From: Actinomycetes bacterium
GTDB lineage: Bacteria; Actinomycetota; Acidimicrobiia; Acidimicrobiales; Bog-793
Direction of reading: 5' to 3'
Assembly: GCA_021803215.1 (NCBI GenBank)
Contig: JAJZLV010000118.1
Coordinates: 1-35,470, forward strand
DNA length: 35,470 nt
Of the stretch, positions 2,354 through 18,901 are shown in pieces; positions within the stretch are counted from its first letter, which is position 1, and each line of letters opens with the position of its first letter. Position numbers and translations under genes: made by a program. Under the pieces are notes generated by a model that did not search any database, was not told where the DNA came from, and worked only from the letters and a program-made list of their open reading frames with translations.

Positions 2354-2474
2354 ACTGACTACGGCACCGGTCGGCCCGAGGCGATCGCGCCGAGGGTTTA
2401 CACGGAGCTCGAGGTGACCGGCTGGTCGAGACCATGTGAAGCTCTTCGCCCGGTTGATTGACTAGACAGGGCGG

Positions 2475-5400
2475 ATGGGCTCTGTGGCGAAGATAAGGCG
2501 CGAGCGGATCGGCCGGCTGCTGCGCATGGTGATCTGGCCGGCCACCCATCCGCTCTCTCACCCGCTCGAGCTGTCCATCCACCGGCTGCCAGGTGAACCG
2601 ATCCCACCCGAGCGGGCGCCCGCTTTGTCCTTCGAGCCCTTCTCGGTCGGGCAAGCTTGGGGCGGTGCCTGGTCGACCGCCTGGTTCAGAGCGGCCGGCA
2701 CCGTCCCGGACGAGTTCGCCGGTCATCGGGTCGTAGCCAGGATCGATCTCGGCTTTCACGGCCAGCCCGGCTTCGGGGGCGAGGCTCTCGTCTTCTCTGA
2801 CGGGCGCCCCCTGCAGGGGGTCAACCCTGCCCACAACTCGGTCCGGCTCACCGACAGCGCCGCCGGCGGCGAGCGGGTGGACCTCCTCGTCGAGGCGGCC
2901 GCCAACCCGGTCGAGCGAGGCGCAGCCTTGGAGTGGCCCCTCCTGCTGCCCGACTACCGCGGCCGAGACCTCTACACCCTGGCCCGCTTCGACATCGCGG
3001 CGGTCGACACCGCCATGATGGAGGTCCTCTACGACTGGACGATCCTCACCGAGCTGGTCGACGAGCTCGGGCTCGAGGACCGCCGTTCCGCCGAGATCCT
3101 CCAGGCTCTCGACCAGGTGGCCCGCGAGGCAGATCTCGCCGACCTCCAAAACAGCGTCGTCGAGCGCCGAGAGAGCTGGGCCGAGCTCCTCGAGCGCCCG
3201 ACGAGAGCCGGGTCGCACGAGACCTACGCAGTCGGCCACGCCCACATCGACTCGGCTTGGCTCTGGCCGATCCGGGAGACAAAGCGCAAGTGCGCCCGCA
3301 CGTTCTCGACGGCTGTCGGCCTCATGAAAGGCGACCCGGACTTCGTCTTCGTCTGCTCGCAGGCACAGCAGCACGCCTGGATGAAAGAGGACTACCCGAC
3401 GCTGTTCGCCGAGATGAGACGGTTCGCCGGCGAGGGTCAGCTCGAGCCGGTCGGCAGCATGTGGGTCGAGCCCGACACCAACCTTCCCTCGGGCGAGTCG
3501 CTCGTCCGCCAGCTCGTCTTCGGGAAGCGGTTCTTCCTCGAGCACTACGGGCTCGAGACGAGCGATTGCTGGCTGCCCGACGCCTTCGGCTACTCGGGCA
3601 ACCTGCCCCAGATCCTGCGATCGGCCGGCGTGGACCGCTTTTTCACCCAGAAGCTCAGCTGGAACGAGATCGACGCCTTTCCCCACCACACCTTCTGGTG
3701 GGAGGGAATCGACGGTTCGAGGGTGCTCGCCCACTGTCCGCCGACGGACACCTACAACGCCGCCATGACAGTGAGTGAGCTGATGGAGGGCGAGCGGCAC
3801 TTCGCCCAGCACGGGGTGAGCGGCAGGTCCCTTTACGTCTACGGCTTCGGAGACGGAGGCGGCGGCCCGACCGAGGAGATGCTGGAGCGGGCCCGGCGAC
3901 TCGCCGACCTCGACCCGCTGCCGAGGCTGCGGCTGTCGCGCGCCAAGAGCTTCTTCGACGACCTCGAGAAGGACCTGGCCCTGGCAGACGAGAGGGAGCA
4001 AGCGGCTTTCGCCGGATCGAGCCGGACGGCCCATGCACCTGGCCCGGGCCGGCTCCCTGTATGGTTCGGCGAGCTGTACCTCGAGCGCCACCGGGGCGTG
4101 CAGACGACCCAGGCCCAGTCGAAGCTCGGCAATCGGCGCTCCGAGCGCCTCCTGCGAGAGGCCGAGCTCTCCGTCCTGCTCTTCCTCGACCAGAAGGAGG
4201 CGGCCTCTGCCACGCGGCGGATCGAGCAGGCCTGGAAGACAGTCCTTCTCCACCAGTTCCACGACATCTTGCCGGGCTCGGGCATCCACTGGGTCCACCA
4301 GGACTCCCGGCGGGCCTACGCCGAGGTCGAGTCAGAGCTCACGGAGGTGATCGGCCAGGCGCTTCAAAGCCTGGCGGGCCGCCTCGCCGAACGTCGGAGC
4401 GGGCCGGCCCTGCTGGCCTTCAACGCCGCTACGGCCCAGCGCAGCGAGGTGGTCGAGGTGGACCGCGGCTCGCTCGGCTGGACCGAGAGCGAGGAGGCGA
4501 GCCTGCAGCCGATCGGCGAGGGCCGAGCCCTTGTCCGCCTCGGGGTCGAGGGAAGCGGCTGGACCACCGTCGCGGCCGACGGGGCGGCGGCGGCGCGACC
4601 GGCCGCGGTCGATCCCGGCGGCCGCTCGATCGAAAACGGGCTCGTCTGCCTCTCGCTCGACGAGAACGGCAACCTGAGCTCTCTTTGCGACCTCGTTCTC
4701 GGCCGCGAGCTCCTGGCCGAAGGATCGACCGGCAACCTCTTCCAGCTCCACCACGACCTGCCGAACAACTTCGACGCCTGGGATGTCGACCAGGGTGCCT
4801 TCGAGCGCGCCTACGACCAGCTCGAGGCGGAGTCGATCGAGGTGACCGAGAACGGCCCTCTCCGGGCGGCATTGCGAGTGAGGCGCAGGATAGGGCGGGC
4901 GAGCCGGCTCACCCAGGAGATCCGGCTGGCGGCCGGGAGCAAGCGGGTGGACTTCGTCACGACGGTCGACTGGCAAGAGTCTCACCGGATGCTCAAGGTC
5001 TCCTTCCCGCTCTCGGTTCGCTCCCCCCGGGCGACCTTCGAGGTGCAGTTCGGCCACGTGGAGCGCCCGACCCATGCCAACACCTCTTGGGACGAGGCCC
5101 GCTTCGAGGTCCCGGCCCAGCGCTTCGCGGCCCTCGCGGAGCCCGGCTTCGGCGTCGGCCTGTTGAACGACTGCAAGCACGGCTACGACGTGCGAGCGAA
5201 CGTCCTGCGGCTCTCCCTCCTTCGCGCGCCCGGCTGGCCCGACCCGAAGGCCGACCGCGGGCGCCACCAGTTCACCTACGCGCTCTACCCCTATGCCGGC
5301 GAGGCCGGCTTCTCCGAGCTGCTGCACGAGGCCGAGCGCCTGAACGTCCCGATCCGCCTTGTTCCCCTGCCGCCTTCGACCGAGGCTCGCGGCGCGGGAT

Positions 5401-5744
5401 CGCTCCCTGCCTCCGGCAGCGCCCTAGCTCTTAGCGGGGCGATGCTGAGCTCCTTGAAGCTGGCCGACGACTCCTCGGGCGACAGGATCGTCCGGCTCTA
5501 CGAGGCGACCGGCGCCCGTTCCATGGCCCGCTTGAGCGGCCTCGGCCGCACGGCCGTGAGCCGGGTCGACTCCCTCGAGCGCCCCGGCGATGAGATCGGA
5601 GAGGTCGACGGTGAGCTCCATCTCGAGTTGAGGCCCTTCGAGCTCGTCACCCTGCGACTTCGCCGCCCTCGCCCGACGGGCCAGGCGGCCCGAGACCCTT
5701 CGGCGCCGCCCACCGGGCGAGCTCGGCCATCGCCCGGCGCATGA
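2475..5744 (+). CDS. Alpha-mannosidase, glycoside hydrolase family 38
   Basis: 1089 residues from ATG 2475, with AGGGCGG just upstream. The N-terminal IRPAxxPxxxPL-like segment and the YEPFxxGxxWGxxWxTxWF-like region (FEPFSVGQAWGGAWSTAWF) match the ancillary N-domain of bacterial GH38 enzymes. The catalytic domain starts near residue 250: VGHAHIDSAWLW gives zinc ligands H257 and D259, WLPDAFGYSGNLPQ gives nucleophile D369, and HQFHDILPGSGIHW (from H593) is the third family signature. The C-terminal beta domain ends around residue 1060 in LELRPFELVTLRLRR. The last 25 or so residues are Pro/Ala/Arg-rich and probably a non-conserved tail. It hydrolyses terminal alpha-mannosides, with retention of configuration. 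No signal peptide is visible, so it is probably cytosolic. Flanked by decayed DNA and with no sugar transporter nearby. Confidence 0.95.
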   Translation: MGSVAKIRRERIGRLLRMVIWPATHPLSHPLELSIHRLPGEPIPPERAPALSFEPFSVGQAWGGAWSTAWFRAAGTVPDEFAGHRVVARIDLGFHGQPGFGGEALVFSDGRPLQGVNPAHNSVRLTDSAAGGERVDLLVEAAANPVERGAALEWPLLLPDYRGRDLYTLARFDIAAVDTAMMEVLYDWTILTELVDELGLEDRRSAEILQALDQVAREADLADLQNSVVERRESWAELLERPTRAGSHETYAVGHAHIDSAWLWPIRETKRKCARTFSTAVGLMKGDPDFVFVCSQAQQHAWMKEDYPTLFAEMRRFAGEGQLEPVGSMWVEPDTNLPSGESLVRQLVFGKRFFLEHYGLETSDCWLPDAFGYSGNLPQILRSAGVDRFFTQKLSWNEIDAFPHHTFWWEGIDGSRVLAHCPPTDTYNAAMTVSELMEGERHFAQHGVSGRSLYVYGFGDGGGGPTEEMLERARRLADLDPLPRLRLSRAKSFFDDLEKDLALADEREQAAFAGSSRTAHAPGPGRLPVWFGELYLERHRGVQTTQAQSKLGNRRSERLLREAELSVLLFLDQKEAASATRRIEQAWKTVLLHQFHDILPGSGIHWVHQDSRRAYAEVESELTEVIGQALQSLAGRLAERRSGPALLAFNAATAQRSEVVEVDRGSLGWTESEEASLQPIGEGRALVRLGVEGSGWTTVAADGAAAARPAAVDPGGRSIENGLVCLSLDENGNLSSLCDLVLGRELLAEGSTGNLFQLHHDLPNNFDAWDVDQGAFERAYDQLEAESIEVTENGPLRAALRVRRRIGRASRLTQEIRLAAGSKRVDFVTTVDWQESHRMLKVSFPLSVRSPRATFEVQFGHVERPTHANTSWDEARFEVPAQRFAALAEPGFGVGLLNDCKHGYDVRANVLRLSLLRAPGWPDPKADRGRHQFTYALYPYAGEAGFSELLHEAERLNVPIRLVPLPPSTEARGAGSLPASGSALALSGAMLSSLKLADDSSGDRIVRLYEATGARSMARLSGLGRTAVSRVDSLERPGDEIGEVDGELHLELRPFELVTLRLRRPRPTGQAARDPSAPPTGRARPSPGA

Positions 5745-6220
5745 GAGCCGAGCCGGCCCTTCTCCTCACGAGCCGGCGGCCGAGCTGGTGCAGGGCCGTG
5801 CGGCCACAAAAGGGCGCTGGCGCACTCCCCGGCCGCCTCCCGCAAAGGGCGAGCTCTCCTCATGCCCCCGAGAACGACAAAGCGGCCGAGATCTTGCGCT
5901 CCGTCTCGCTGACAGCCCGAGGGGCCCAGAGCCGGGGAGAGACGGTCCACCGCCCGGCCCACTTGGGCTCAGGCGGTAGACGAGCTCGGGGGGGAGGACT
6001 CGAACTCCCGCCACGCCATCATCGGCTATACCCCGCCGTCACGAGTTCGCTGTTCACAGCGGGTTTTGGGTGATCTGTCCATCCCTGCTGGTCGGCGCCT
6101 GTACCCCTCGATCCCGGCAAGTCTGTGACCAAGTTGTGACCACAGCACCGCCCCGAATCGAGCCGCCGGGTTACGGTGGCGAGGTGACTGCGGGAGACCG
6201 AAACGGGATCCTGTCCCCAC
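5745..6220. other. Intergenic stretch holding an att-like repeat and a possible integrase 3' relic
   Basis: No gene is convincing on the plus strand. On the minus strand two short frames look protein-like: one read just downstream of the tRNA-derived repeat (PPEPKWAGRWTVSPRLWAP then AVSETERKISAALSFSGA, stop at about 5855), and one continuing behind that stop (CGRTALHQLGRRLVRRRAG), overlapping the mannosidase 3' end. I do not recognise them. At 6120-6142 the sequence has two direct copies of TGTGACCA. Read on the minus strand this gives WSQLGHR or CGHNLVTD, the kind of peptide often seen at the extreme 3' end of actinobacterial tyrosine-integrase genes next to their attachment site. The rest of such a gene is absent. 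Confidence 0.35.
5983..6005 (-). repeat. Direct repeat of the tRNA-Gln 3' end (att-like site)
   Basis: These 23 bases are identical, in the same orientation, to 10647-10669, which is the discriminator/acceptor 3' strand and T-arm part of the tRNA-Gln gene. Upstream of the T-arm the sequence diverges at once, and no 5' acceptor strand able to pair is found at the right distance, so this is a fragment and not a second tRNA. A truncated tRNA 3' end at the far side of a set of accessory genes is the usual scar of site-specific integration into a tRNA gene. Confidence 0.7.
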
Positions 6221-6625
6221 GTGTTGGCCGTGCGTGAACCCCTGCAGCTCCGGGAAGCCACGACGCCGACAACACTGCTCCGCGTCCGCTCCGGCCGCAC
6301 CACCTTGAGCGACGACAAGCTCCGTCAGAACTGCGAGGTCACCTTCGCCAGGTGGGGACTGCACGGCTTCTCGGTGTTCGAACTGCCGGACGGCGACTAC
6401 AAGCGTCTGGCCCGCCTTCTCCCCCTCCTGCTCGACCGCCAATGGGTTCTCGAGGCGACCGGCGCCGATCTGCTTACACACGGCTTCCCACTTCTTCCGA
6501 CTCGGGAGCATCCCCACTGGACGATCGTGCTGGCAGAGCCCACCTCGACTCAGTTCGCACGTGTCCGCAACCACTTCTCCGACCCGAAACGAAACCCGGT
6601 CTGGGCCGGGCCGCGCCGACGGTAA
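6221..6625 (+). CDS. Hypothetical protein (134 aa), first gene of an unknown pair
   Basis: 134 residues, starting TTG/GTG-type at 6221 and ending TAA at 6623-6625. The start is uncertain; the protein-like part begins near TTLSDDKLRQNCEVTFARWG. It continues FSVFELPDGDYKRLARLLP, LLDRQWVLEATGADLLTHG and HPHWTIVLAEPTSTQFARV, ending RNHFSDPKRNPVW. It looks like a compact alpha/beta domain. No catalytic motif that I can name and no signal peptide or membrane segment. The next gene starts ten bases after the stop, so the two are very probably co-transcribed. Both lie at the left end of the putative tRNA-Gln island. I do not recognise the family. Confidence 0.55.
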   Translation: MLAVREPLQLREATTPTTLLRVRSGRTTLSDDKLRQNCEVTFARWGLHGFSVFELPDGDYKRLARLLPLLLDRQWVLEATGADLLTHGFPLLPTREHPHWTIVLAEPTSTQFARVRNHFSDPKRNPVWAGPRRR

Positions 6626-6635
6626 CATCAGCGTC

Positions 6636-6878
6636 GTGGCTGACGAGCGCTACGACCTTCGATACGACCCCAATGAGGTCGGGGGGGACCTGGTCGTCGA
6701 GTGCTGGATCTCGCACGGCCCCCGCGCGCACGACCCCAGCTTTGACCCCCAGCCCGCGGACGAGGTCACCCTCGGCGACGACGAGGAAGCCCCCTACCGA
6801 GGACGGGTCATTCGCCGTGACGGCATCCGGGTCTGGGTCCAAATCGATCGCGAATCGGCGGCTCATACCGCCGCCTGA
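6636..6878 (+). CDS. Hypothetical small acidic protein (80 aa), second gene of an unknown pair
   Basis: I chose GTG 6636 (VADERYDLRYDPNEVGGD) because it lies ten bases after the upstream stop and the residues before it in the same frame look random. The protein has 80 residues with about 18 Asp/Glu, including a DDEE run (GDDEEAPYRGRVIRRDG), and ends RVWVQIDRESAAHTAA. The RGRVIRRDGIRVWVQID stretch would suit a short beta-hairpin. No family recognised. The pair layout (135-residue protein followed by a small acidic one) resembles toxin-antitoxin or effector-immunity pairs in outline only; no motif supports that. Confidence 0.5.
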   Translation: MADERYDLRYDPNEVGGDLVVECWISHGPRAHDPSFDPQPADEVTLGDDEEAPYRGRVIRRDGIRVWVQIDRESAAHTAA

Positions 6879-6971
6879 AAAGCCTCCCACCAGCTCATCG
6901 GCAGACGCCGACGTGCGTCCTCGTAGGCCATGACGGTGGCGCGGTTGTGATCATCCGGTGATCGTGTCGCT

Positions 6972-7928
6972 CTATCCGAAATCGATGCCAGTGGAAAGGC
7001 CCGAGCGATAGGGGGTCAGGTCAGCCTTGGCGTAGCGAGCCTGGGTGTCCGCCAGGGTTTGCTCATCCCAGTACGGGTCGCCCGGAGCCGGGAAGCCGAA
7101 CACCGACCGCTCCCGTGGAGTTGCTCGCTCGATGAGGTCGCCCCACTCTGCGGTGTTCGAGTCGCGGGCCCAGCCGACCCGGCCCGTCCAGCGCGGCCCC
7201 CAGACGTCGTAGTGAGCGAGGAGGGCGAATCGGGCTGATCGCTCGGCGGTCATGCGCGATCCCCGGTGCACGATGTCGGTCCGGAAGGAGAACAGCGTTC
7301 CCGCCGGCCCGGTCACGGGGACCTCTTGGTCGGCGAAAGCCCCGGGCGGGAGGTAGCTCGTGACGTATTCGTTCGCCGAACCGTCGAGCGTGTCCGGCCA
7401 GTACGGGACGCTCTCGGCGACGGAGAGGAGGACGACCTTGGTGGGGCCGTCGTCGGGGCCGACATCGGAGAGGCGGATCCAGTTCTGCAGCTGGGTTGCC
7501 GGGTCGGACCGTTTGGGGACGACGAGGGTGTGGTTGGCGAAGTCCCGGTGATGCTGCTGCTCGTAGTCGACGGCCCCGGCGTATTTGCCCCACAGTTCGG
7601 CGTCGTAGAAACGGAGGTCGGCCGAGCCCAGGAAGCGCTCCACCAGGTCGAGGAGGTCGGGATGAAACATGAGGCGGTTCAGGTTGCAGGAGCGCCACGG
7701 GGCGCGGATAAGGCCAGCCCACTGGCTCGTGGACAGCCAGGCGTGAGCGGCCGGGTCGGCGAAGTGCTCCTCGGGCCGGGGGTAGTGCTGCCAGAGAGCC
7801 TCCTGAGCCGCCACCAGCTCCGCGGCACTGAGGAAGCCCTCGAAAACCAGAAAGCCGCGCTCCCGCAAGTCCGACAGGAAGAATCCGGCACCCCCATGGA
7901 GACCCAAAGCTCCCGCTCCGGTCTCCAA
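6972..7928 (-). CDS. Phytanoyl-CoA dioxygenase (PhyH) family oxygenase
   Basis: 318 residues from a TTG at 7928. The first recognisable block is FLSDLRERGFLVFEGFLSAA, the N-terminal helix-turn of PhyH proteins. The iron site is present: H127-R-D129 in QQHHRDFANHTLV and the distal H221 in FSFRTDIVHRGSRMT, with arginines just after it that would bind 2-oxoglutarate. Fe(II)/2-oxoglutarate oxygenases of this family hydroxylate diverse small molecules; the substrate here cannot be told. The gene is divergent from the methyltransferase at 8016, with under 90 bases between, so the two may share a control region and a pathway. The start is uncertain because the ATG nearby is out of frame. It sits inside the putative island. 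Confidence 0.85.
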   Translation of the reverse strand: METGAGALGLHGGAGFFLSDLRERGFLVFEGFLSAAELVAAQEALWQHYPRPEEHFADPAAHAWLSTSQWAGLIRAPWRSCNLNRLMFHPDLLDLVERFLGSADLRFYDAELWGKYAGAVDYEQQHHRDFANHTLVVPKRSDPATQLQNWIRLSDVGPDDGPTKVVLLSVAESVPYWPDTLDGSANEYVTSYLPPGAFADQEVPVTGPAGTLFSFRTDIVHRGSRMTAERSARFALLAHYDVWGPRWTGRVGWARDSNTAEWGDLIERATPRERSVFGFPAPGDPYWDEQTLADTQARYAKADLTPYRSGLSTGIDFG

Positions 7929-8015
7929 ATCCGTGTCCTCGGACCGGTTCCCAAGCGTCGGCGGATCCCGAGCTAATCGATGGCATTCCCAGAGGCAACG
8001 CTTCTAGCCTTGATC

Positions 8016-8771
8016 ATGGTCCGATTCGATTTCGACGATGTGTTCGGGGCGAACTACCTCCACTTCTACCTTCCTCGCCTCTCCGAAGACCGGAACCGTG
8101 CCGAGGCAGCCGAAATCATCGACCTGCTCGGGCTGCAGCCCGGGGACCGTGTGCTCGATGCCCCGTGCGGCCACGGCCGAATTGCCAACCTCCTCGCAGC
8201 GACGGGCGCCGTCACAACCGGAGTCGACGCCTCTGGGGTGTTCCTGGAGCTAGGTCGCGCCCAGGCGACGGAGGCCGGCGTCGAGGTCGACTATCGACCC
8301 GGCGACCTTCGCCAGTTGCCGGTTCCCAACCAGGAGTATGACTGCGTCGTCAACTGGTTCACGTCGTTCGGCTACTTCGATGACAACGACAACGTGTTGG
8401 TGTTGCGCGAATTTCACCGCGTCCTGCGCCCGGGCGGGAGACTTCTGATCGAAACGATGCACCGTGACGGGATAGTCAGAGCATTCCCGGCAACCGGTTC
8501 CACTCATGTGGAGCGCGCCGGGCCTGATGGCATGGACCTGATGATCGACAGCTCGACGTTCGACGTCGACAGCGGAAGGCTCCTTACGGAGCGCATCGTC
8601 GTCCGTGATGGGAAGAGCACGACTTCGAACTACAGCGTCCGCCTTCCTGCCCCCACCGGGTTCCGCACCTGGCTGCAAGAGGCTGGATTTCGCTCGCTGC
8701 GCTTCTCGACCCGCCACGGCCAGCCACTAACCCTGGACAGCCGGAGACTGGTCGTCGTCGCCGAAGCCTAA
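8016..8771 (+). CDS. Class I SAM-dependent methyltransferase
   Basis: 251 residues if started at ATG 8016 (MVRFDFDDVFGANYLHFYL), which fits the family better than an in-frame ATG 36 bases upstream. Motif I is GDRVLDAPCGHGRIANLLA, with GVDAS as the acidic end of strand 2. Later blocks are YDCVVNWFTSFGYFDD and HRVLRPGGRLLIETMHRDG. The order and spacing are those of Methyltransf_11/25-type small-molecule methyltransferases. Substrate unknown. It is transcribed away from the PhyH oxygenase; an oxygenase next to a methyltransferase suggests tailoring of a small molecule, which is inference. Confidence 0.85.
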   Translation: MVRFDFDDVFGANYLHFYLPRLSEDRNRAEAAEIIDLLGLQPGDRVLDAPCGHGRIANLLAATGAVTTGVDASGVFLELGRAQATEAGVEVDYRPGDLRQLPVPNQEYDCVVNWFTSFGYFDDNDNVLVLREFHRVLRPGGRLLIETMHRDGIVRAFPATGSTHVERAGPDGMDLMIDSSTFDVDSGRLLTERIVVRDGKSTTSNYSVRLPAPTGFRTWLQEAGFRSLRFSTRHGQPLTLDSRRLVVVAEA

Positions 8772-8905
8772 AGGCTCAAGTCGGGTCTGGTGACAGCGAT
8801 CTGGTAAGCCGGCTACGGAGCGTCAGCCTCGCCAGCCAGGGGCCGCCACCCGCTTTTCGCCGCGGCGCTCTCACGACAACGCTGGATCGATGCTATGCAG
8901 GCCGG

Positions 8906-9110
8906 GTGAGCAGCCTGAGCCGCTGGCCGAACGAGGATGAGATGGTTGCCGAGCTGTACGGCGGCGCGTGGGCGGACTCGGAGAGCTGGGCCCGACGATG
9001 CCGACGGGATGGCTGCGTGGTGTGTCTGTCGGGCCACCCGTTCGGGATCATCGGCGAGCTTGACCATGTTTGGGTCGCCACCGACCATGAGGTTGCCGTG
9101 GCCGGCTACG
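8906..9110 (+). pseudogene. N-terminal fragment of a HIT-like protein
   Basis: From GTG 8906 the frame reads RWPNEDEMVAELYGGAWAD, RRDGCVVCLSGHPFGIIGE and ELDHVWVATDHEVAVAGYA. This resembles the start of HIT proteins of the CPxC...GxP type: a CxxC-like pair, then an EL...WV strand and the PGY(A/V)CV turn. The following part, which should carry the SKRH segment and the HxHxH active site, is missing: after about 9107 the sequence is unrelated in all frames. A separate open frame at 9107-9243 (GYEVGFARRPRMASLLFGSG) is not recognised. No active enzyme is expected. An intact HIT gene is found at 34455. Confidence 0.5.
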
Positions 9111-9244
9111 CGACGACAGCCTCGGTAGAGGCTACGAGGTCGGCTTCGCCCGGCGGCCCCGCATGGCCTCACTGCTGTTCGGGAGCGGATCCGACCGGCT
9201 TGCATCTGGCCCCTCTCGGGGGCAACGCATCACGTCTTGAGCGT

Positions 9245-9705
9245 CTATTCGAGGTGCGGGCGGTGACGGATGAGCCAGGCGGCGGAGCGAAGCCGCCAGG
9301 CCACGGCCCACCCGGGATCGGCCGGGATCGGCCGGGCCGTCGGGTGCTTTAGCCATGCTCAGCCCTCCAGAGAGGGTGAGCTCGTTCGCGGCGTCGCGCA
9401 CGGCGTGCTCGATCATCCTGGTGACCAGTTCCGCCCGCTCGGTACGGTCGAGGCCGTAGGCGTCGGCGAACAGGCCGAGTTGGCGGGCGCGGTGCGCTGC
9501 CGTCGGAAGGTGGTTGCGGGTTGCGATGTCGTCGTCGTGGAGTTGGGCGTTGAGCCAGGCAACCTGGGCGACCTCGTCGAGGCGGTCGATGGGGCCGGCG
9601 AACTCCCAGTCGATGAACCCGACGGGCAGCCCTTGGCGGGCGACGATGTTCCACGGGCCGAGGTCGCCGTGTCCGTGGATGGCGTGGGGGATTGAGAATG
9701 ACGTC
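9245..9705 (-). pseudogene. Aminoglycoside phosphotransferase-like (APH) pseudogene
   Basis: The minus strand encodes the C-terminal half of an APH-fold kinase: HGHGDLGPWNIVARQGLPVG holds the Brenner-type HGDxxxxN catalytic loop, and FIDWEFAGPIDRLDEVAQV holds the metal-binding D. Then LNAQLHDDDIATRNHLPTAA and RARQLGLFADAYGLDRTER follow as in intact relatives. Near the end, a 10-bp unit (GGGATCGGCC on the plus strand) is present twice in tandem at 9314-9333 and shifts the frame. Removing one copy restores PADPGWAVAWRLRSAAWLIR and the natural end IRHRPHLE with TAG at 9245-9247. The N-terminal nucleotide-binding lobe is missing or unrecognisable upstream of about 9705. Two independent lesions make this a pseudogene. 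Confidence 0.75.
9314..9333. repeat. 10-bp tandem duplication inactivating the APH gene
   Basis: GGGATCGGCC occurs twice back to back. Ten is not a multiple of three, and deleting one copy restores the expected C-terminal reading frame of the phosphotransferase. This is a slippage-type mutation in a GC-rich context. Confidence 0.8.
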
Positions 9706-9785
9706 CTCGGAAAGCTCCGAGTACCGGAAGATGCTGAACACGACGGTCCCTTCGGTCGGTGTCGGACGGAACACAGCGCGCACAA

Positions 9786-10221
9786 AGCGCGCCGGCAGCA
9801 GCTGGGCTCAGCTGTTCGAGGCCGGCACCGGTGGGCCGATCGGCCCGCCCGGACTAACCGGTCATCAAGAGACGGTGCGCGGCCCCAACTCGACCGTGGC
9901 AGGCATCGTGGTCATCTGGCTCCTTCCAAGCACTGACTGACGGATGCACATTATGCGACGACCGCTGGACGGGCCTACAGTCCGGAGCCGTCCTTCTGCC
10001 CCCGACCACGCGGTGACATCACGCCCAAGGCATCGCCGAATCAGAGGCATCGAGAACCGAGAAGCCGAACATCCGTGCTCTAGCGCCCCGGATGGCGTCG
10101 GTGGTCGTCGCGCGCTGGCGGAGGGTCAACATCGCGCATGCTCCCGCGCGCATTCCGAGAGCCCGCCGTCGAGGAGCGTCATCGGCTGGACCGTACTTCG
10201 TCGCGCACCCCCTCGCTCGGG
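9786..10221. other. Stretch without a recognisable gene
   Basis: Several overlapping frames exist on both strands but their residue composition is Arg/Pro/Ser-rich and changes style along the length, as expected of non-coding GC-rich DNA. A minus-strand frame ending at 10019 (ARMFGFSVLDASDSAMPWA) looks slightly protein-like but has no homologue I know. I see no repeats or hairpins worth listing. Confidence 0.4.
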
Positions 10222-10596
10222 TCACAGGCCGATCTGCGGCACTTCGAGCTGCATCGTGTCGACGCTCTCGATCGTGGCGCTCCCCGGCTGAGGGACCGCC
10301 AACGACGTCCGACCAAGGGCTGCCTGGGCGGCCACGTGACGCCGCAGCTGCTCGTGCAGATCGACCGCTTCTCTGGCCAGGTGGGCCCACTCTCCTGGGT
10401 CGGGGCGCGCCGCGGAGGACAGGTACCGGTCGGCGACGGCGATCTCCTGCCGGGCCCGGTCGCTCCACTGGTCCCATCCCGTCCACGCTGCGCTGGTGCC
10501 GTCGTTCCGGTCGAGGGTGGCTTCCACTGCCATGGCGTGGTGGCACCACACGGCCCGCCCGGCCGATGAGGCGGGGACCGGTCGACGAGACGGCAC
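10222..10596 (-). CDS. Hypothetical protein, mostly helical
   Basis: Up to 124 residues; the start is either 10596 or the in-frame ATG at 10533 (MAVEATLDRNDGTSAAWTGW), and I favour the latter. The middle part reads DQWSDRARQEIAVADRYLS, GEWAHLAREAVDLHEQLRR and HVAAQAALGRTSLAVPQPG, an amphipathic helical protein. The C-terminus is SATIESVDTMQLEVPQIGL. No signal peptide, no known motif. It is the first gene of the island next to the tRNA-Gln gene and is read away from it, behind the tRNA terminator. I do not recognise it. Confidence 0.5.
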   Translation of the reverse strand: MPSRRPVPASSAGRAVWCHHAMAVEATLDRNDGTSAAWTGWDQWSDRARQEIAVADRYLSSAARPDPGEWAHLAREAVDLHEQLRRHVAAQAALGRTSLAVPQPGSATIESVDTMQLEVPQIGL

Positions 10597-10605
10597 GACA
10601 AGAGG

Positions 10606-10632
10606 AAGCCCCAGGCCGCTGACCTGGGGCTT
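10606..10632 (-). terminator. Hairpin terminator downstream of tRNA-Gln
   Basis: Ten-base arms AAGCCCCAGG (10606-10615) and CCTGGGGCTT (10623-10632) pair perfectly around a 7-base loop. It lies 17 bases beyond the tRNA 3' end. The bases after the hairpin are only moderately T-rich on either strand, so it may act in both directions. Confidence 0.7.
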
Positions 10633-10648
10633 TGTCCCTTGAGCGCAG

Positions 10649-10720
10649 CTCGGGGGGGAGGACTCGAACCCCCAATAACAGGGCCAGAACCTGTCGTGTT
10701 GCCGATTACACCACCCCCGA
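10649..10720 (-). tRNA. tRNA-Gln, anticodon CTG
   Basis: 72 nt. The 5' acceptor strand TCGGGGG pairs with 3' CCCCCGA, with discriminator G. The D-arm GTGTAATCGGCAACAC, the anticodon stem-loop ACAGG-TTCTGGC-CCTGT with CTG as anticodon, a 4-nt variable loop and the T-arm GGGGG-TTCGAGT-CCTCC all fold. CCA is not encoded. The T at position 1 and the D-arm are typical of bacterial glutamine tRNAs. Its 3' part is copied at 5983-6005, so it is probably the integration site of the element to its left; the tRNA itself was kept intact. Confidence 0.93.
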
Positions 10721-10832
10721 AGGGCGCCGCCATCGTATCAGGGCGGCCAGAGCAGCCCTGTCCCGGACACATGCGATGGCGGGACTGCCTAGTGTCGCTA
10801 CCCGGCAACAAGGCTCGAAAGAGAGGGACCGG

Positions 10833-11800
<968 letters not shown>

Positions 11801-11801
<1 letters not shown>

Positions 11802-11821
11802 CCCGGCCGGGTCGGCCGGGC
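11801..11821 (+). terminator. GC hairpin after the aldo/keto reductase gene
   Basis: Nine-base perfect arms (GCCCGGCCG and CGGCCGGGC) around a 3-base loop begin at the last base of the stop codon. There is no T-run. Hairpins without a U-tail are proposed to work as terminators in some actinobacteria, so this is possible but unproven. Confidence 0.4.
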
Positions 11822-11948
11822 CACCCGGGGCCGCCGAGCCTGCGGGCCGGGCAGGACCCCCCGGCCGTTGAGAAGTGGGGCGCCTCGGGGTAAACCTATG
11901 GGTGCGCGGAGAGTGGCCGGGCACGCACCCTGGGAGCAGGATCGGGCG

Positions 11949-13238
11949 ATGGAGCAGAGCGCTACCAGCATCGAGCAGGCGATCCGGAACGCCACCGACC
12001 CGGCCTCGCTCCTGCGGCGCATCGTGGAGGAGGCCACCAGGCTCATTCCCGCGGCGGAAGGTGCCGCTCTGCTGCTGCTCGACGGCGACGAGTTCACGTG
12101 GGTCTGCGCCGGCGGGCTGCTCTCCATCCCGGCGGGCATGCGGATGCCGGTCGCCGGCAGCCTGGCCGGCCTTGCGATAGAGCAGGGCCGCACCGTCTTC
12201 TCAGAAGACGCCCGGCACGACCGGCGAGCCAACACCCGGGCGGTCGAGCTGAGCGGGACCGCCGCCACGGCGAGCGTGCCGCTCTACTACGAGAGCCGGC
12301 CAATCGGCTGCCTCACCATCGGGTCGCCCTATCCGGGCGCCTTCAGCCACGAGCGCGTCGAGGTGCTCAACACGCTCGCCGAGTTCATCTCGACCGCGAT
12401 CGCGACCGTCATCAAGATGAACCGGATAACGGCTCAGCTCCTCGAGATTGACGACGGGCCGCTGCTCAACGGCCTCCGGGCCGAGCCGGCCTCGGTCGCC
12501 CACTTCGTCGCCAACGTCCTGCACCCGGGCACCGGCTCGGACATAGTCCGCCGCCAGCAGATCGAGCGGGTGCTCGAAGAGGGCATCACGACCTGCTTCC
12601 AGCCGATAGTGGAGCTGTCGAGCCGGCACCTGCTCGGCTTCGAGGCCCTCGCCCGCTTCCCGAGCGGTCAAACGGTCGACTGGTTCGCCGACGCCCATCG
12701 CCTCGGCCTCGGCACCGCCCTCGAGGAAGCCACCTGCCGGCGGGCCCTCTCCTGCATCGGCCTTTTGCCGCCCGAGTGCTACCTCGCCGTCAACCTGAGC
12801 CCTATCGCCCTCTCGCGAAAGGGCGTGCCGGAGCTCTTCGGACAGGTCGACCCCAACAGGATCGTCCTGGAGCTGACCGAGCACCTGCGGGTCGAGGACT
12901 ATCCGAGCCTGCGCCGGCGAGTCTCGGAGCTGCGCCGGCAGGGCTTTCGCCTGGCGATCGACGACACCGGGGCCGGCTTTGCCAGCCTCTCGCACATCAT
13001 CAGGCTCGAGCCCGACATCATCAAGCTCGACCTCGACCTCACCAGGGGCATCGACCTCGACCCGGTGCGGCGCTCCCTTGCCACCGCGCTCATGACCTTC
13101 GCGGCAGACATAGATGCCCTCGTCATCGCCGAGGGCATCGAGACCGAGGGGGAGCTCGCCACCCTTCTCGAGCTCGGCATCGGCGTCGGCCAGGGTTACC
13201 TCCTCGGCCGACCGGAGCCAGCCGCTCAGCTCGCCTGA
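11949..13238 (+). CDS. GAF-EAL cyclic-di-GMP phosphodiesterase
   Basis: 429 residues from ATG 11949, chosen over an in-frame ATG at 11898 because of GGGAGCAGGA upstream and the helical start SATSIEQAIRNATDPASLLR. GAF domain about residues 15-160. EAL domain about 205-425, with all residues needed for two-metal c-di-GMP hydrolysis visible: E232 in FEALARF, N282 in VNLSPIAL, E308 in LELTEHLRV, D338/D339 in AIDDTGAGFASL, K359 in IIKLDLDL, E395 in IAEGIETEGE and Q415 in GQGYLLGRP. Expected to linearise c-di-GMP in the cytoplasm under control of a ligand or signal at the GAF domain. No membrane segments. With the cyclase at 18902 and BldD at 32478 it probably belongs to one signalling network. Confidence 0.93.
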   Translation: MEQSATSIEQAIRNATDPASLLRRIVEEATRLIPAAEGAALLLLDGDEFTWVCAGGLLSIPAGMRMPVAGSLAGLAIEQGRTVFSEDARHDRRANTRAVELSGTAATASVPLYYESRPIGCLTIGSPYPGAFSHERVEVLNTLAEFISTAIATVIKMNRITAQLLEIDDGPLLNGLRAEPASVAHFVANVLHPGTGSDIVRRQQIERVLEEGITTCFQPIVELSSRHLLGFEALARFPSGQTVDWFADAHRLGLGTALEEATCRRALSCIGLLPPECYLAVNLSPIALSRKGVPELFGQVDPNRIVLELTEHLRVEDYPSLRRRVSELRRQGFRLAIDDTGAGFASLSHIIRLEPDIIKLDLDLTRGIDLDPVRRSLATALMTFAADIDALVIAEGIETEGELATLLELGIGVGQGYLLGRPEPAAQLA

Positions 13239-13244
13239 GGTGCC

Positions 13245-13844
13245 TCAGCCGGCGATGAACCCTGTCTGGGCGAAACCGGCGATGCGCCCCCAGGCGACGG
13301 CGGCCGCCTGAACCGCCACCGTCGAGGCTTCGTTCCCGATGCCGCCGGAGACAGGAGCGACGGGCGACGAGACGACGTGGAAGCCCTCGGCGGTGGCGAG
13401 ATGTCCGAGCCAGAAGATCTGCCAGCTGTCCGCCACGAGGAGCGCCTGGCGCGGTGGGTTCGAGTCGGCATATAGGTGAAGAGCCCCCGGAAGCTCGGCT
13501 GCGGCGTAGGTGGATATCGCGGGGGAGGGCACCTTGCGCGAGAGGAGGTAAAGGCGCGCTCGCACCGCCTGAGGCTGCGAGAAGCAGAGGACCACGACCT
13601 TCCGGGCCCGATCGGCCGAGCGGAGGGCGACGGCGTGGCCGAGGCGAGCCCGGAAGTCGGCGTCGAGAGGTCCGCTCGGAGTTCCGGTGCCGGCCACTAT
13701 CACGGCCGGGCGGAACGGAGCTGCGGCGACGGCGCCCGGCGCCCGGGAGGCGAGCACCACCTGCACCCCGCTCACCACGTAGTAGCTCACGGCCGCCAGC
13801 ACGACGAGCTCTATCAATCGCTTGGCGAGGGAGAAGATGAACAC
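13245..13844 (-). CDS. Membrane-anchored DUF218/YdcF-like protein
   Basis: 199 residues from GTG 13844. One N-terminal membrane segment (about residues 9-31) is followed by an extracytoplasmic domain: PAVIVAGTGTPSGPLDADFR, LRSADRARKVVVLCFSQP, RALYLL-like RARLYLLSRKVPSP, and RQALLVADSWQIFWLGHLA then GFHVVSSPVAPVSG. The alternation of beta strands, the arginine after the first strand and the ALLVxxxxHxxRA-like strand follow DUF218, although the usual polar residues are not all kept. Function of the family is poorly known, with some links to the envelope. It begins 14 bases after gltX and is probably in the same transcript. Converges with the EAL gene, six bases apart. Confidence 0.6.
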   Translation of the reverse strand: MFIFSLAKRLIELVVLAAVSYYVVSGVQVVLASRAPGAVAAAPFRPAVIVAGTGTPSGPLDADFRARLGHAVALRSADRARKVVVLCFSQPQAVRARLYLLSRKVPSPAISTYAAAELPGALHLYADSNPPRQALLVADSWQIFWLGHLATAEGFHVVSSPVAPVSGGIGNEASTVAVQAAAVAWGRIAGFAQTGFIAG

Positions 13845-13858
13845 CTAAGCCACCCCTT

Positions 13859-15292
13859 TCAGCCTTCCCGGCCACACGCCGTGAGGGCCGCCTCGATCCG
13901 CTCGAGGGTCTCGTGCCTTCCGAGCGCCTCGAGAGACTCAAAGAGAGGCAGGCCGACGCTTCTCCCGAGAGTCGCCACCCGGACCGGCGCCTGGGTCTTT
14001 CCGAGCCGGCGCCCGTGGCGCTCCCCGACTCTCTCGAGGGCGGCCCTCAGCTCCTCGGCCCGCCAGCTGGAGACGGCCGCGAAGCCCGCCGCGGTCTCGC
14101 GCAGGATCGCCGGGGCGAGCCCGTCTCGCGCGATCGCCTTCTCGAAAGAGGCGGCCTCCATCGAGAACCCCGGGGCGAAGAGGAACTCGACGAGCCCGGG
14201 CACCTCCGAGAGGATCCGCGCCCTCTCTTGCACCAGGGGGGCGAGCTTCTCCCAGCGCTCTCCCGAGTAGCAGGCCGCGCCGAGGCGGTCTTCGGTCTCC
14301 CTCGCCCACTCGGTCACCCGGCGGGTGAACTCCGCCACGGGGAGCTCTCTCATGTAGACGGAATTGAAGTGGGTGAGCTTCACCTGGTCAAAGAAGGCGG
14401 GCGAGCTGTTCACGTCTTCCAGTCGGAAGTCGCGCACGAGGTCGTCGAGGCCGAAGAACTCGCCGCCTGCCGGCGGCGACCAGCCGAGCAGGCAGAGGTA
14501 GTTGGCCATCGCCTCGGGCAGGTAGCCGAGCGCCTCGAAGTCCTCGAGGGCCACCCGGTCCCGACGCTTGGAGATCTTCTGGCGCCTCTCGTTCACGAGC
14601 ACCGGCAGGTGGGCGAAGTAAGGGAGCGGCACCTCTTGAGCGGCCTCGTTGAGAGCCTCCCAGAGCAAGACGGCCTTCGGCGTGGTGGGGAGGTGCTCTT
14701 CTGCCCGGATGACATGGCTTATGGCCATGTCGCGGTCGTCGGCCACGACCGCCAGGACGAAAAGCGCCTCTCCGCTCGAGCGGGCGACGACGAAGTCCTC
14801 GATGGTCGAGTTGGCGAACTCGACCTCTCCCCGCACGAGGTCGTGCACGACCGTCACCCCGTCGTCCGGGACGGCGAAGCGGAGCGCCCGGCCGGGGCCC
14901 CGCTCTAGGCCGCGCCGGCGGCAGTAGCCGTCGTAGCCGGGCGTCGGGTTTCTCTTCGTCCGCGCCAGGACCGCCTCCCGGCTGCAGTCGCAGGCATAGA
15001 GGGCGCCCGCCTCCCACAACGAGTCGAGCGTCGAGGCGTACAGCCCGCCCCGCTCCGACTGGCGGTAGGGCCCCTCGTCCCAGACAGCGCCTATCCAGCG
15101 CAGGGCGGCCTCGATGCCCGAGACCGACTCCTCTTTGTTGCGGGCGGCGTCGGTGTCCTCGATGCGCAGCACGAACTTCCCACCGTGCTGGCGGGCGAAG
15201 GCCCAATTGTAAAGGGCCGTCCGGGCGGTGCCGACGTGAAAGTAGCCGGTCGGCGAGGGGGCGATCCGCACCCTCACCGGTCGATCGCCCAT
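13859..15292 (-). CDS. gltX: Glutamyl-tRNA synthetase
   Basis: 477 residues from ATG 15292 (MGDRPVRVRIAPSPTGYFHV). The class I HIGH motif appears as FHVGTARTALYNWAFAR, and the KMSKS loop as KISKRRD. IEDTDAARNKEES is the conserved acceptor-recognition segment, and a CDC...GYC cysteine set (CDCSREAVLARTK, then PGYDGYCRR) could bind zinc. A GTG at 15310 is an alternative start that overlaps the stop of the ferredoxin gene, so the two genes are translationally coupled. It charges tRNA-Glu in the cytoplasm. In actinobacteria such non-discriminating enzymes also charge tRNA-Gln for the GatCAB route; whether this one does cannot be read from the sequence. Confidence 0.97.
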   Translation of the reverse strand: MGDRPVRVRIAPSPTGYFHVGTARTALYNWAFARQHGGKFVLRIEDTDAARNKEESVSGIEAALRWIGAVWDEGPYRQSERGGLYASTLDSLWEAGALYACDCSREAVLARTKRNPTPGYDGYCRRRGLERGPGRALRFAVPDDGVTVVHDLVRGEVEFANSTIEDFVVARSSGEALFVLAVVADDRDMAISHVIRAEEHLPTTPKAVLLWEALNEAAQEVPLPYFAHLPVLVNERRQKISKRRDRVALEDFEALGYLPEAMANYLCLLGWSPPAGGEFFGLDDLVRDFRLEDVNSSPAFFDQVKLTHFNSVYMRELPVAEFTRRVTEWARETEDRLGAACYSGERWEKLAPLVQERARILSEVPGLVEFLFAPGFSMEAASFEKAIARDGLAPAILRETAAGFAAVSSWRAEELRAALERVGERHGRRLGKTQAPVRVATLGRSVGLPLFESLEALGRHETLERIEAALTACGREG

Positions 15293-15306
15293 GGTGGCCT
15301 CGCTGC

Positions 15307-15501
15307 TCACTCCTCGGCGAGCGAGATGGCGGCCGTCGGGCAGGCGCGGACGCACTCGAGCAGCTTCTCGCGGTACTGCTCGGAGGGGTGATCGTCGAGG
15401 ACGTACATGAAGCCGTCGTCGCGCACCTCGAAGACCTCCGGCAGGATGCCCATGCAAATGGCGTTCGACTGGCAAAGGTCGTAGTCGACCACGACGCGCA
15501 C
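15307..15501 (-). CDS. Small single-cluster ferredoxin
   Basis: 64 residues from GTG 15501. The cluster ligands are in DYDLCQSNAICMGILPEVF (first and last Cys) and LECVRACPTAAI. The middle position of the first motif is Asn (C-x2-N-x2-C), where [4Fe-4S] ferredoxins have Cys. This pattern is known from the [3Fe-4S] ferredoxins that feed cytochrome P450s in actinobacteria. No P450 is in the window, so the partner is unknown. It precedes gltX with overlapping coupling, an odd pairing that may only reflect a shared promoter. An acyl-CoA dehydrogenase starts divergently 74 bases away. Confidence 0.85.
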   Translation of the reverse strand: MRVVVDYDLCQSNAICMGILPEVFEVRDDGFMYVLDDHPSEQYREKLLECVRACPTAAISLAEE

Positions 15502-15574
15502 CGCTCTCCTCCTCGTCTCTCTGCCGCTTCCAAGGCCGAGACTACCTGGCCAGGGCGGCGAGTATCGTCGGCTC

Positions 15575-16699
15575 GTGGGCCCCGCCCTTCCAAGAGCACA
15601 TCCCGAGCGCCAGGCGGTGAGGGACTTCCTCGCCCGCCACCCGAGCCCGAGCGGGCGAGAGCTCGCCGAGGCGGGCTACGTCGCCCCCCACTGGCCGGCT
15701 CCCTACGGGCGGGGCGCCGACCCGCTCTCCCAGCTCGTCATCGACGAGGAGCTCTCACGGGCAGGGGTCTCGCGCCCCGAGAACCCGATCGGGATCGGCT
15801 GGGCCGGCCCCACCATCCTCGAGGCGGGAAGCGAGGCGCAAAAAGAGCGCTACCTGCTCCCGCTCCTCGCGGGCGAGGAGCTGTGGTGCCAGCTCTTCTC
15901 GGAGCCGGGCGCCGGCTCCGACCTGGCGGCGATCTCGGCGCGAGCGGTGCGCGACGGGGAGAGCTACGTCGTGTCGGGCCAGAAGCTCTGGACCTCGCTC
16001 GCCCACCGGGCCGCCTTCGGCATCCTGCTCGTCCGGACCGACCAGTCGGCCCCCCGCCGCCGCGGCATCACCTATCTCATCTGCCCGATGCGCAGCGACG
16101 GGCTCACGATCCGGCCGATCATCGACATGACCGGCTCGCACAGCTTCAACGAGGTCTTCTTCGACGAGGTGCGGATAGCCGTCGCCAACCGGGTGGGCGA
16201 GGAGAACGATGGCTGGCGCCTTGCCAAGGTGACCCTCGCCAACGAACGGGTCTCGCTCTCGAAAGAGGGCGCCCTCTGGGGAAGGGGACCGACGGCCCGC
16301 GACCTCGTGGCGGCGGTCGGCCGGGGCCAATCCCGGCTCCCGCCCGTGCTTCGCGACCGCCTGACCCGCCTCTGCATCGAAGGAGAGGTCCTCTCCTCGC
16401 TCCGCCAGCGATCGCTGGCCGCCGCCATCGCCGGCCGGAGCCCGGGCCCGGAGGCCTCGGTGCGAAAGGCGCTCGCCGACGCCCACGGCCAGCGCCTGAT
16501 GGACCTCTCCCGCGACCTCGCCGGCCCGGCCGCAGCGCTCGGGCTCGAAGAGGCGGACCGCTTCGGCCCGGAGTACCGCTACGGCTTTTTGTTCTCGCCC
16601 GCTCTCACCATCGGAGGCGGGACGGCCGAGGTGCAGCGAAACATCATCGCCGAACGGCTCCTCGGGCTACCTCGCGAGGCCGAGCTGGAGCAGCCCTAG
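15575..16699 (+). CDS. Acyl-CoA dehydrogenase
   Basis: 374 residues from GTG 15575. The N-terminal helical domain includes GRELAEAGYVAPHWPAPYGR. The FAD/substrate middle domain has LWCQLFSEPGAGSDLAAIS and VSGQKLWTSLAHRA, followed by RGITYLICPM and FNEVFFDEVRI. The C-terminal helical domain ends LTIGGGTAEVQRNIIAERL. All are hallmarks of this flavoprotein family, which makes the first double bond in acyl-CoA breakdown; this subgroup resembles FadE-type enzymes. Substrate is not readable. It ends on a CTAG shared with the convergent Nudix gene. Divergent from the ferredoxin-gltX operon. Confidence 0.93.
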   Translation: MGPALPRAHPERQAVRDFLARHPSPSGRELAEAGYVAPHWPAPYGRGADPLSQLVIDEELSRAGVSRPENPIGIGWAGPTILEAGSEAQKERYLLPLLAGEELWCQLFSEPGAGSDLAAISARAVRDGESYVVSGQKLWTSLAHRAAFGILLVRTDQSAPRRRGITYLICPMRSDGLTIRPIIDMTGSHSFNEVFFDEVRIAVANRVGEENDGWRLAKVTLANERVSLSKEGALWGRGPTARDLVAAVGRGQSRLPPVLRDRLTRLCIEGEVLSSLRQRSLAAAIAGRSPGPEASVRKALADAHGQRLMDLSRDLAGPAAALGLEEADRFGPEYRYGFLFSPALTIGGGTAEVQRNIIAERLLGLPREAELEQP

Positions 16700-17172
16700 C
16701 CCGCCGGAGCCTCGATGGCCGCCAGCAGCCGGTCGACCAGCTCCGCCTGGGAGGGATTCAGCCGGCGGCGCGCCTCGCTCGGCGGAAACCAGGCGAGCCG
16801 GTCCACCTCGGGAAAGAGCTCCACGCGGCCCGAACCCGGCGGCCACTCCAGCTCGAAGAGATTGCTCCTTGCCTGCTCGCAGTCGAGCTCTCCCTCTACT
16901 GCGTAGACCCGCACCCGCTTGCCACCCGCCTGGCGCACCTCTCCGAGCTCGAGGCGCCGGCCGGCCGGGGCGGGAAGGCCGGTCTCCTCCTCGAACTCCC
17001 GCTCGGCCGCGGCGAGCGGCCCTTCCGCCGGCTGGTACTCGCCCTTCGGGACGGTCCAGACGCCGAGGTCGCGCTTTAGAAAGTACGGGCCACCCGGGTG
17101 GGCGAGAAAGAGCTCGAGGCCCTCTTCGCCCTGTCGGCGGTAGACCAGCAGCCCGGCCGAGAGACGGGCCAC
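16696..17172 (-). CDS. Nudix hydrolase
   Basis: 158 residues from GTG 17172. The Nudix box is complete: G44, E50, R58-E59, E62-E63 and G65 in GEYQPAEGPLAAAEREFEEE and TG, matching GX5EX7REUXEEXGU. The N-terminus SAGLLVYRRQGEEGLELFLA and the VWTVPKGEY turn are like DUF-type Nudix proteins annotated as NTP or (di)nucleoside polyphosphate hydrolases. Substrate unknown. It starts three bases after the stop of the mutase gene, so it is the last gene of a minus-strand operon cyclase-mutase-Nudix. Confidence 0.9.
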   Translation of the reverse strand: MARLSAGLLVYRRQGEEGLELFLAHPGGPYFLKRDLGVWTVPKGEYQPAEGPLAAAEREFEEETGLPAPAGRRLELGEVRQAGGKRVRVYAVEGELDCEQARSNLFELEWPPGSGRVELFPEVDRLAWFPPSEARRRLNPSQAELVDRLLAAIEAPAG

Positions 17173-17175
17173 CTC

Positions 17176-18858: not shown

Positions 18859-18901
18859 CCGAGAAAGTCTAGAGGCGGTACGGCTCGAGCCGCCGAGAGG
18901 C

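Follow-up and report, generated by a model that had tools for sequence, protein, structure and literature searches.

Islands integrated at tRNA genes are recognized in the Islander catalogue by a regenerated tRNA gene and a displaced fragment of it, and the method as outlined there also requires an integrase (PMC4383910). By the same outline, T-stem crossover sites were assigned for 1836 of 3919 islands (PMC4383910). Elements that have no integrase are the subject of part of a review in which integrase-less cassette arrays and satellites are described as hitchers, with gene loss as one origin (PMC11389934). Here, a 35,470-bp stretch of DNA (the window) was analyzed, comprising the entire contig C42 of the genome of an uncultured Acidimicrobiales bacterium (G000; 2.64 Mb, 148 contigs, 95.5% completeness), in which positions 5983-10669 form a candidate island at a tRNA-Gln(CTG) gene. 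This segment is very probably an integrative element that was inserted into the 3' end of the tRNA gene by a tyrosine integrase of a related-temperate-phage type and that persists as a non-autonomous relic. The reading is carried by duplication of the target, the empty site of a sister genome, a two-site distal arm at the offsets of an intact prophage, and the finding of no such integrase in G000.

The target gene and the repeat that bounds the island are the following.

10648-10720, minus strand: tRNA-Gln(CTG), the intact target gene (ARAGORN)
10647-10669, plus strand: tRNA-side attachment (att) copy within the intact tRNA-Gln, 23/23 identity to 5983-6005
5983-6005, plus strand: distal att copy, the displaced tRNA-Gln 3' end, 23/23 identity to 10647-10669

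An earlier reading of the window (the original prediction) had proposed a decayed integrative island bounded by an exact 23-bp copy of the tRNA-Gln 3' end recurring in the same orientation, with the tRNA 3' end pointing into the enclosed segment. Both the repeat and its orientation were borne out by sequence comparison: AGCTCGGGGGGGAGGACTCGAAC is an exact repeat on the same strand, it equals the 3' end of tRNA-Gln(CTG), and that end faces the enclosed segment. Scattering of the repeat over many unrelated positions, which would have told against an island, was not seen, as just these two copies occur in the 2.64-Mb genome even when 3 mismatches are allowed. The longest exact piece of tRNA-Gln elsewhere in the window was 22 nt, compared with at most 14 nt in 300 first-order shuffles. 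The GC content of the island (~0.64-0.69) is slightly lower than that of most of the flanks. Of the marks used by Islander, the segment 5983-10669 has an intact tRNA with a displaced fragment, in matching orientation with both copies on one strand, and no integrase inside, a profile search for PF00589 having given no match on the window contig.

The chromosomal flanks were defined by comparison with related genomes.

2475-5744, plus strand: alpha-mannosidase-like gene (open reading frame, ORF), left chromosomal neighbor outside the island, collinear with the same-genus genome G001 at 76% DNA identity over 2460-5663
5861-5878, plus strand: 18-bp block of the native tRNA-Gln downstream flank, common to G001, 122 bp from the core here and 119 bp in G001
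5940-5978, minus strand: hairpin of the displaced native flank, the probable original tRNA terminator (fold of 5940-5982: -32.3 kcal/mol, z -6.0)
10834-11801, plus strand: aldo/keto reductase, right chromosomal neighbor outside the island (10647-20380 collinear with G001 at 79%)

In G001 the order is mannosidase, a 0.66-kb spacer, one tRNA-Gln and the aldo/keto reductase region. The mannosidase side is joined to a single tRNA-Gln, as an island at this place requires, and together with the unique repeat this arrangement supports the proposed integration. Judged by alignment, the G001 locus is the empty site of the island, which implies an insertion of ~4.66 kb. From the G001 flank and the other loci of the family, 5983-6005 is the copy belonging to the native flank, and the inserted DNA runs from there to 10646. 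The first 16 bp of the block at 5861-5878 were also found in G006 (L071) and G023 (L074). The mannosidase gene is also found on this side of tRNA-Gln, 1.2-8.0 kb away, in six further family genomes, where the intervening genes look by eye like normal chromosomal genes (ion channel, glycogen debranching, histidyl-tRNA synthetase). No island protein had a match in any of 27 tRNA-Gln loci searched. These comparisons bear on the alternative that the island is ancestral to the genus and was lost by G001, as two genomes of the genus were compared and an empty site of this form would also result from precise excision. However, with other genes between mannosidase and tRNA-Gln in the six family genomes, the island proteins unmatched in the 27 loci, and the PhyH-type gene of the island absent from the 17 other family genomes listed, such a loss is very unlikely.

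The element side of the distal core contains the following features.

6006-6142, plus strand: element-side distal (P') arm, starting with TC like the G342 prophage and the G122 units and unlike the CC of the tRNA (alignments)
6124-6131, plus strand: arm-type site 1, TGTGACCA, at offset 141 from the core start, as in G342, G122 and G289
6135-6142, plus strand: arm-type site 2, TGTGACCA, at offset 152 from the core start, as in G342

The G342 counterpart (L253) is a prophage at tRNA-Gln(CTG) with an integrase, a terminase large subunit and a tape measure protein, and with 18.6 kb between two 24-bp core copies. It resembles the island in its target tRNA, in a distal core identical to 5984-6007 (24 bp), including TC where the intact tRNA has CC, and in a distal arm with TGTGACC at 141 and 152 bp from the core start. 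Unlike the island, it has an integrase, phage genes and, on the tRNA side, another TGTGACC pair, and the two have no cargo in common. G122 has another two copies of the tRNA-Gln 3' end, likewise accompanied by this distal arm, at offset 141. Since the distal-arm offsets equal those of intact elements, the window motif is accounted for as the distal arm, and an integrase tail is not needed to explain it. The same agreement bears on whether the contig was misjoined at the 23-bp repeat. The genome is fragmented (148 contigs), but the element-side arm beside the core matches elements of other genomes at the expected offsets, and 23 bp is below the usual assembly k-mer length, k-mers in common use being longer than this; an assembly artefact is extremely improbable.

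The original prediction had taken the repeats and the WSQLGHR/CGHNLVTD peptides at the left boundary for the last codons of a lost tyrosine integrase. The copies of TGTGACCA at 6124 and 6135 and the minus-strand translations are real, but their reading as a lost integrase did not hold. Minus-strand frames over 6019-6628 gave no Pfam match, even with the E threshold relaxed to 1, and intact elements have the motif pair at the same position of their distal arm, which is away from the integrase. An integrase remnant at 6006-6220 was rejected on these grounds. A candidate integrase tail on the plus strand, a frame of ~21 codons that runs to 6139 and ends within the motif, was likewise rejected, the distal-arm sites of three integrase-bearing units (L253, L252 and L259) lying far from the integrase. 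A tandem insertion whose middle core, near 6200, had been lost was set aside when the distal-arm offsets fitted intact elements.

TGTGACCA occurred 3 times in the window compared with 0.32 expected, the pair beginning 118 bp inside the distal copy. Across the order, TGTGACCANNNTGTGACCA gave 45 occurrences in 33 of 397 genomes and the reversed-pattern control gave 0. Of the 30 loci returned, 16 have an opposite-strand tRNA gene whose 3' end is 76-94 bp from TGTGACCANNNTGTGACCA, and at several loci a tyrosine-recombinase frame terminates at position +5 or +16 of the motif, with the stop codon within the repeat (L150, L152, L155, L160; viral L241, L246). With a simple pattern, a recombinase frame ended nearby on the motif strand at 13 of 117 motif places, and the majority of 80 viral motif loci show neither tRNA nor recombinase frame. 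Spacing and sequence vary among targets: the sites lie at 143/154 in a tRNA-Leu element of G192, each with 1 mismatch to TGTGACCA, and at 175/186 in a tRNA-Lys element of G061, which has a longer core, while a tRNA-Arg repeat (L261) has no TGTGACC sites at the distal-arm position. A lone TGTGACCA and a hairpin lie just outside the distal core of the G061 unit (L259, G061:C6, ~6179-6254), as if an older unit adjoined the present one. The pattern of an arm-site pair with a tRNA 3'-end copy was matched in 8 of 298 genomes of the order, with 1 match for the reversed control; the matches include another tRNA-Gln unit adjoined by defence genes. Two candidate tRNA-end copies were discarded: G033:C64 (93% over 27 bp) lies inside a primase-like frame, presumably dnaG, and its similarity ends within the core, and G013:C5 sits on a tRNA-Gln(TTG) gene. 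From its distribution and spacing, the TGTGACCA pair is a recurrent signature of predicted integrase arm sites. An Arm-DNA-bind_4 match was obtained for 4 of 6 integrases scanned, above the cut-off in 1. The open-access literature searched, subscription journals being outside that scope, gave no description of a TGTGACC arm signature and nothing relevant on arm-type sites in Actinobacteria.

Ten units were delimited in the loci examined, and three were dropped (L194, in which the motif repeats itself, and L212 and L244, viral contigs of unknown host). The remaining sample of seven chromosomal units and the window is small, at eight, and was selected by the motif itself. Integrases are carried by the G342 and G192 units, by the G061 unit (PF00589 match inside) and, in truncated form, by G040; no PF00589 match was found on the stretches of G122, G289 and G225 or in the window. 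On the tRNA side, TGTGACC is present as a pair in G342, G192, G061 and G225 and as a single copy in G040, with none in G122, G289 or the window. Of the features of TGTGACC-type elements, the island has the distal-arm pair 141/152 bp from the core start and lacks the tRNA-side pair and an integrase of the L253 group. The units of G122 (L295, tRNA-Gln) and G289 (L296, tRNA-Leu) are similar to the island in being small (1.66-1.7 and 2.9 kb) and integrase-less, with the distal arm at 141 and no tRNA-side pair, and differ in their cargo. The G122 unit differs further as part of a tandem series: at G122:C47, 3393-12693, two core copies 1.66 kb apart are followed by a stretch with a SIR2/ThsA-like gene, a resolvase-type recombinase and a type IIG restriction-methylation gene, and then by the contig end. 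G122 has 29 PF00589 matches. At L258 (G225:C143), a 7.6-kb tRNA-Lys unit has arm pairs on both sides and no PF00589 gene on the contig.

Such units would fit an alternative in which the island is alive, integrase-less distal-arm units forming a persistent class of cargo cassettes that phage integrases of the same tRNA specificity move in trans. Three of the eight units (the window, G122 at 1.66 kb, G289 at 2.9 kb) are without integrase and tRNA-side sites and keep the distal arm at 141, and a fourth (G225, 7.6 kb) is without a PF00589 gene and keeps both arms. However, integrase-bearing units have TGTGACC on both arms (G040, with its truncated integrase, has a single tRNA-side copy), and loss from one arm is therefore more simply read as lost mobility. 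Furthermore, no second copy of the island unit was seen in another genome, and one island gene is truncated. A living cassette is accordingly considered improbable. In its general form, the proposal that Acidimicrobiales carry minimal integrase-less cassettes, bounded by tRNA 3'-end copies, with a single distal arm (TGTGACC 141/152) and inserted in trans by temperate-phage integrases of the same specificity, tRNA-Gln(CTG) being a docking place shared by phage and cargo, is doubtful, if marginally less so. In favor of the relic, intact relatives have the integrase next to the tRNA-side pair or almost next to it, so that loss of both together is the most economical explanation.

The tRNA-side arm of the island contains one further feature.

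10606-10632, minus strand: terminator-like hairpin (fold of 10600-10647: -25.8 kcal/mol, z -3.5)

Several points weigh against the relic. The tRNA-side arm has no TGTGACC pair, no TGTGACCA-like site at 1 mismatch being present in the 400 bp left of the tRNA-side core on the arm strand, and 10605-10669 aligns at 80.6% with DNA lying beyond the distal att of the prophage in G342. The missing pair and the likeness of the hairpin to the G342 outer flank make the tRNA-side boundary less certain. As 10577-10646 resembles both this flank and, by eye, the tRNA-side arm of the G061 unit, it may be element or donor chromosome. No phage, conjugation or integrase gene was recognized inside the island, so that the vehicle is deduced from the ends alone. 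Fourteen of the 30 motif loci, that of the window included, have no tRNA at 76-94 bp, and binding of TGTGACC by the arm-binding domain of the integrase is a prediction. The fragmented state of the G000 assembly means that an integrase encoded elsewhere could be missing from it. Two of these features, the 80.6% alignment and the arm pair not found on the tRNA side, would also be expected had the island entered by homologous recombination or by an aberrant, specialized-transduction-like excision, the tRNA-side end then being the native tRNA-Gln flank of another species. Against such entry, tandem and intact units also have hairpins of this kind between arm pair and core, and the tRNA core itself accounts for 23 of the 65 aligned bases; such entry is regarded as unlikely.

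Four PF00589 genes were found in G000 by profile search. Two are XerC/D-like, a name that we take from their kind, and are 40% identical to each other. A third (L099, G000:C2, 3396-4754) is a 452-aa integrase frame overlapping tRNA-Ala(TGC), with GCGCGATGG twice in tandem near its end, and represents a second, different tRNA-targeting integrase in this genome; the fourth is a 158-aa fragment on a contig with tRNA-Ile. Full-length TGTGACC-type integrases are mostly 41-57% identical to that of L253 (L257, 30%), whereas L099 is 25% identical to it over 330 aa and the other G000 integrases 37-45% over 40-87 aa. No TGTGACC-type integrase or helper was seen among the four. In the preferred sequence of events, a tyrosine integrase of the related-phage type would have inserted the element into the 3' end of tRNA-Gln(CTG), with its arm-binding domain binding TGTGACC. 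The core would have been exchanged within the T-arm block, the copy brought by the element restoring the tRNA, and the integrase and tRNA-side arm sites would later have been lost together, leaving cargo that is presumably immobile by itself.

The cargo consists of the following genes.

6221-6625, plus strand: 134-aa protein of unknown function, gene 1 of a two-gene cassette; match in 14 of 198 genomes of the order, G000 included
6633-6878, plus strand: 81-aa protein of unknown function, gene 2 of the cassette; 60% identical partner directly after gene 1 in L273 and L274
6972-7928, minus strand: PhyH-type dioxygenase, intact (PF05721, E 1.1e-9)
7980-8771, plus strand: S-adenosylmethionine methyltransferase, intact (PF13649, E 5.8e-21); best relative 49% in G153
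8906-9352, plus strand: ORF without recognized family, possibly a fragment; no Pfam, PHROGs, PADLOC or NCBIfam match
9132-9785, minus strand: truncated phosphotransferase (APH) remnant (PF01636, E 6.5e-6), covering profile positions 171-213 of 239 only
10222-10596, minus strand: 124-aa ORF of unknown function; in 5 of 198 genomes of the order, its own included, best other 41%

Relatives of the 134-aa protein are 52% identical in G118 and G183, and none was found in the 5 other family genomes listed. The 134-aa and 81-aa genes are neighbors in three families of the order, with G118 and G183 among the carriers, and L274 has a second match to the 81-aa protein. The PhyH protein has relatives at 79% identity in two other families of the order and, on this distribution and its absence from the family genomes noted above, is foreign to the family. 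A PhyH relative in G071 near tRNA-Lys (L124) was rejected as evidence of a shared element, with no tRNA-end repeat within 14 kb and no other island gene; it lies among accessory-looking genes ~4 kb from the tRNA-Lys 3' end (G071:C66, 4380-9356), and a long frame beyond the tRNA resembles, by eye, a type IV coupling protein. The methyltransferase also matches the PADLOC model mad2 (E 1.1e-18), over the methyltransferase core alone, a match that does not count as evidence for a role in defence. Neither the 134-aa nor the 124-aa protein was matched in searches of phages and plasmids, and the 134-aa protein was also unmatched in the viral contigs searched. Prophage structural and packaging genes were absent from the PHROGs matches (8 queries, methyltransferase and unknown-function matches only), and relaxase and conjugation genes from the Pfam matches of 10 queried ORFs. 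The Pfam, PHROGs and PADLOC scans, in which known satellite gene sets were not searched individually, returned no packaging or replication gene of satellites or tycheposons. At least two island genes had been described as broken; there is one clear case, the phosphotransferase, whereas the ORF at 8906-9352 matches no family by which its state could be judged. The term decayed is fair for the lost integrase and the one truncated gene, but the PhyH and methyltransferase genes look intact.

As the end marks of phage-type integration are present and the integrase is absent, the island is best read as stranded cargo of a tRNA-targeted mobile element, a new instance of an element kind already known. 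Tycheposons target tRNA. The island is similar to tycheposons and other phage satellites, as these are presented in the review's treatment of them, in being a cargo element that may depend on helpers (PMC11389934); it differs in that no satellite hallmark gene was recognized in it and in that its helper dependence is putative. With the islands of Islander, as defined in the outline cited above, it shares an intact tRNA, a displaced 3' fragment in the same orientation and a crossover block in the T-stem region, and it differs in having no integrase gene inside, which is obligatory there (PMC4383910). An integrase-requiring catalogue of this kind would therefore miss the window island, and would pass over stranded islands in general (PMC4383910). 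Here, an arm-site pair with a tRNA 3'-end copy sufficed to find the end of such an island. Furthermore, these marks name a likely helper, the phage type using the same tRNA-Gln and arm sites, which makes mobilization in trans a testable question. In these respects the island fits the picture of integrase-less hitchers drawn in that part of the review (PMC11389934).

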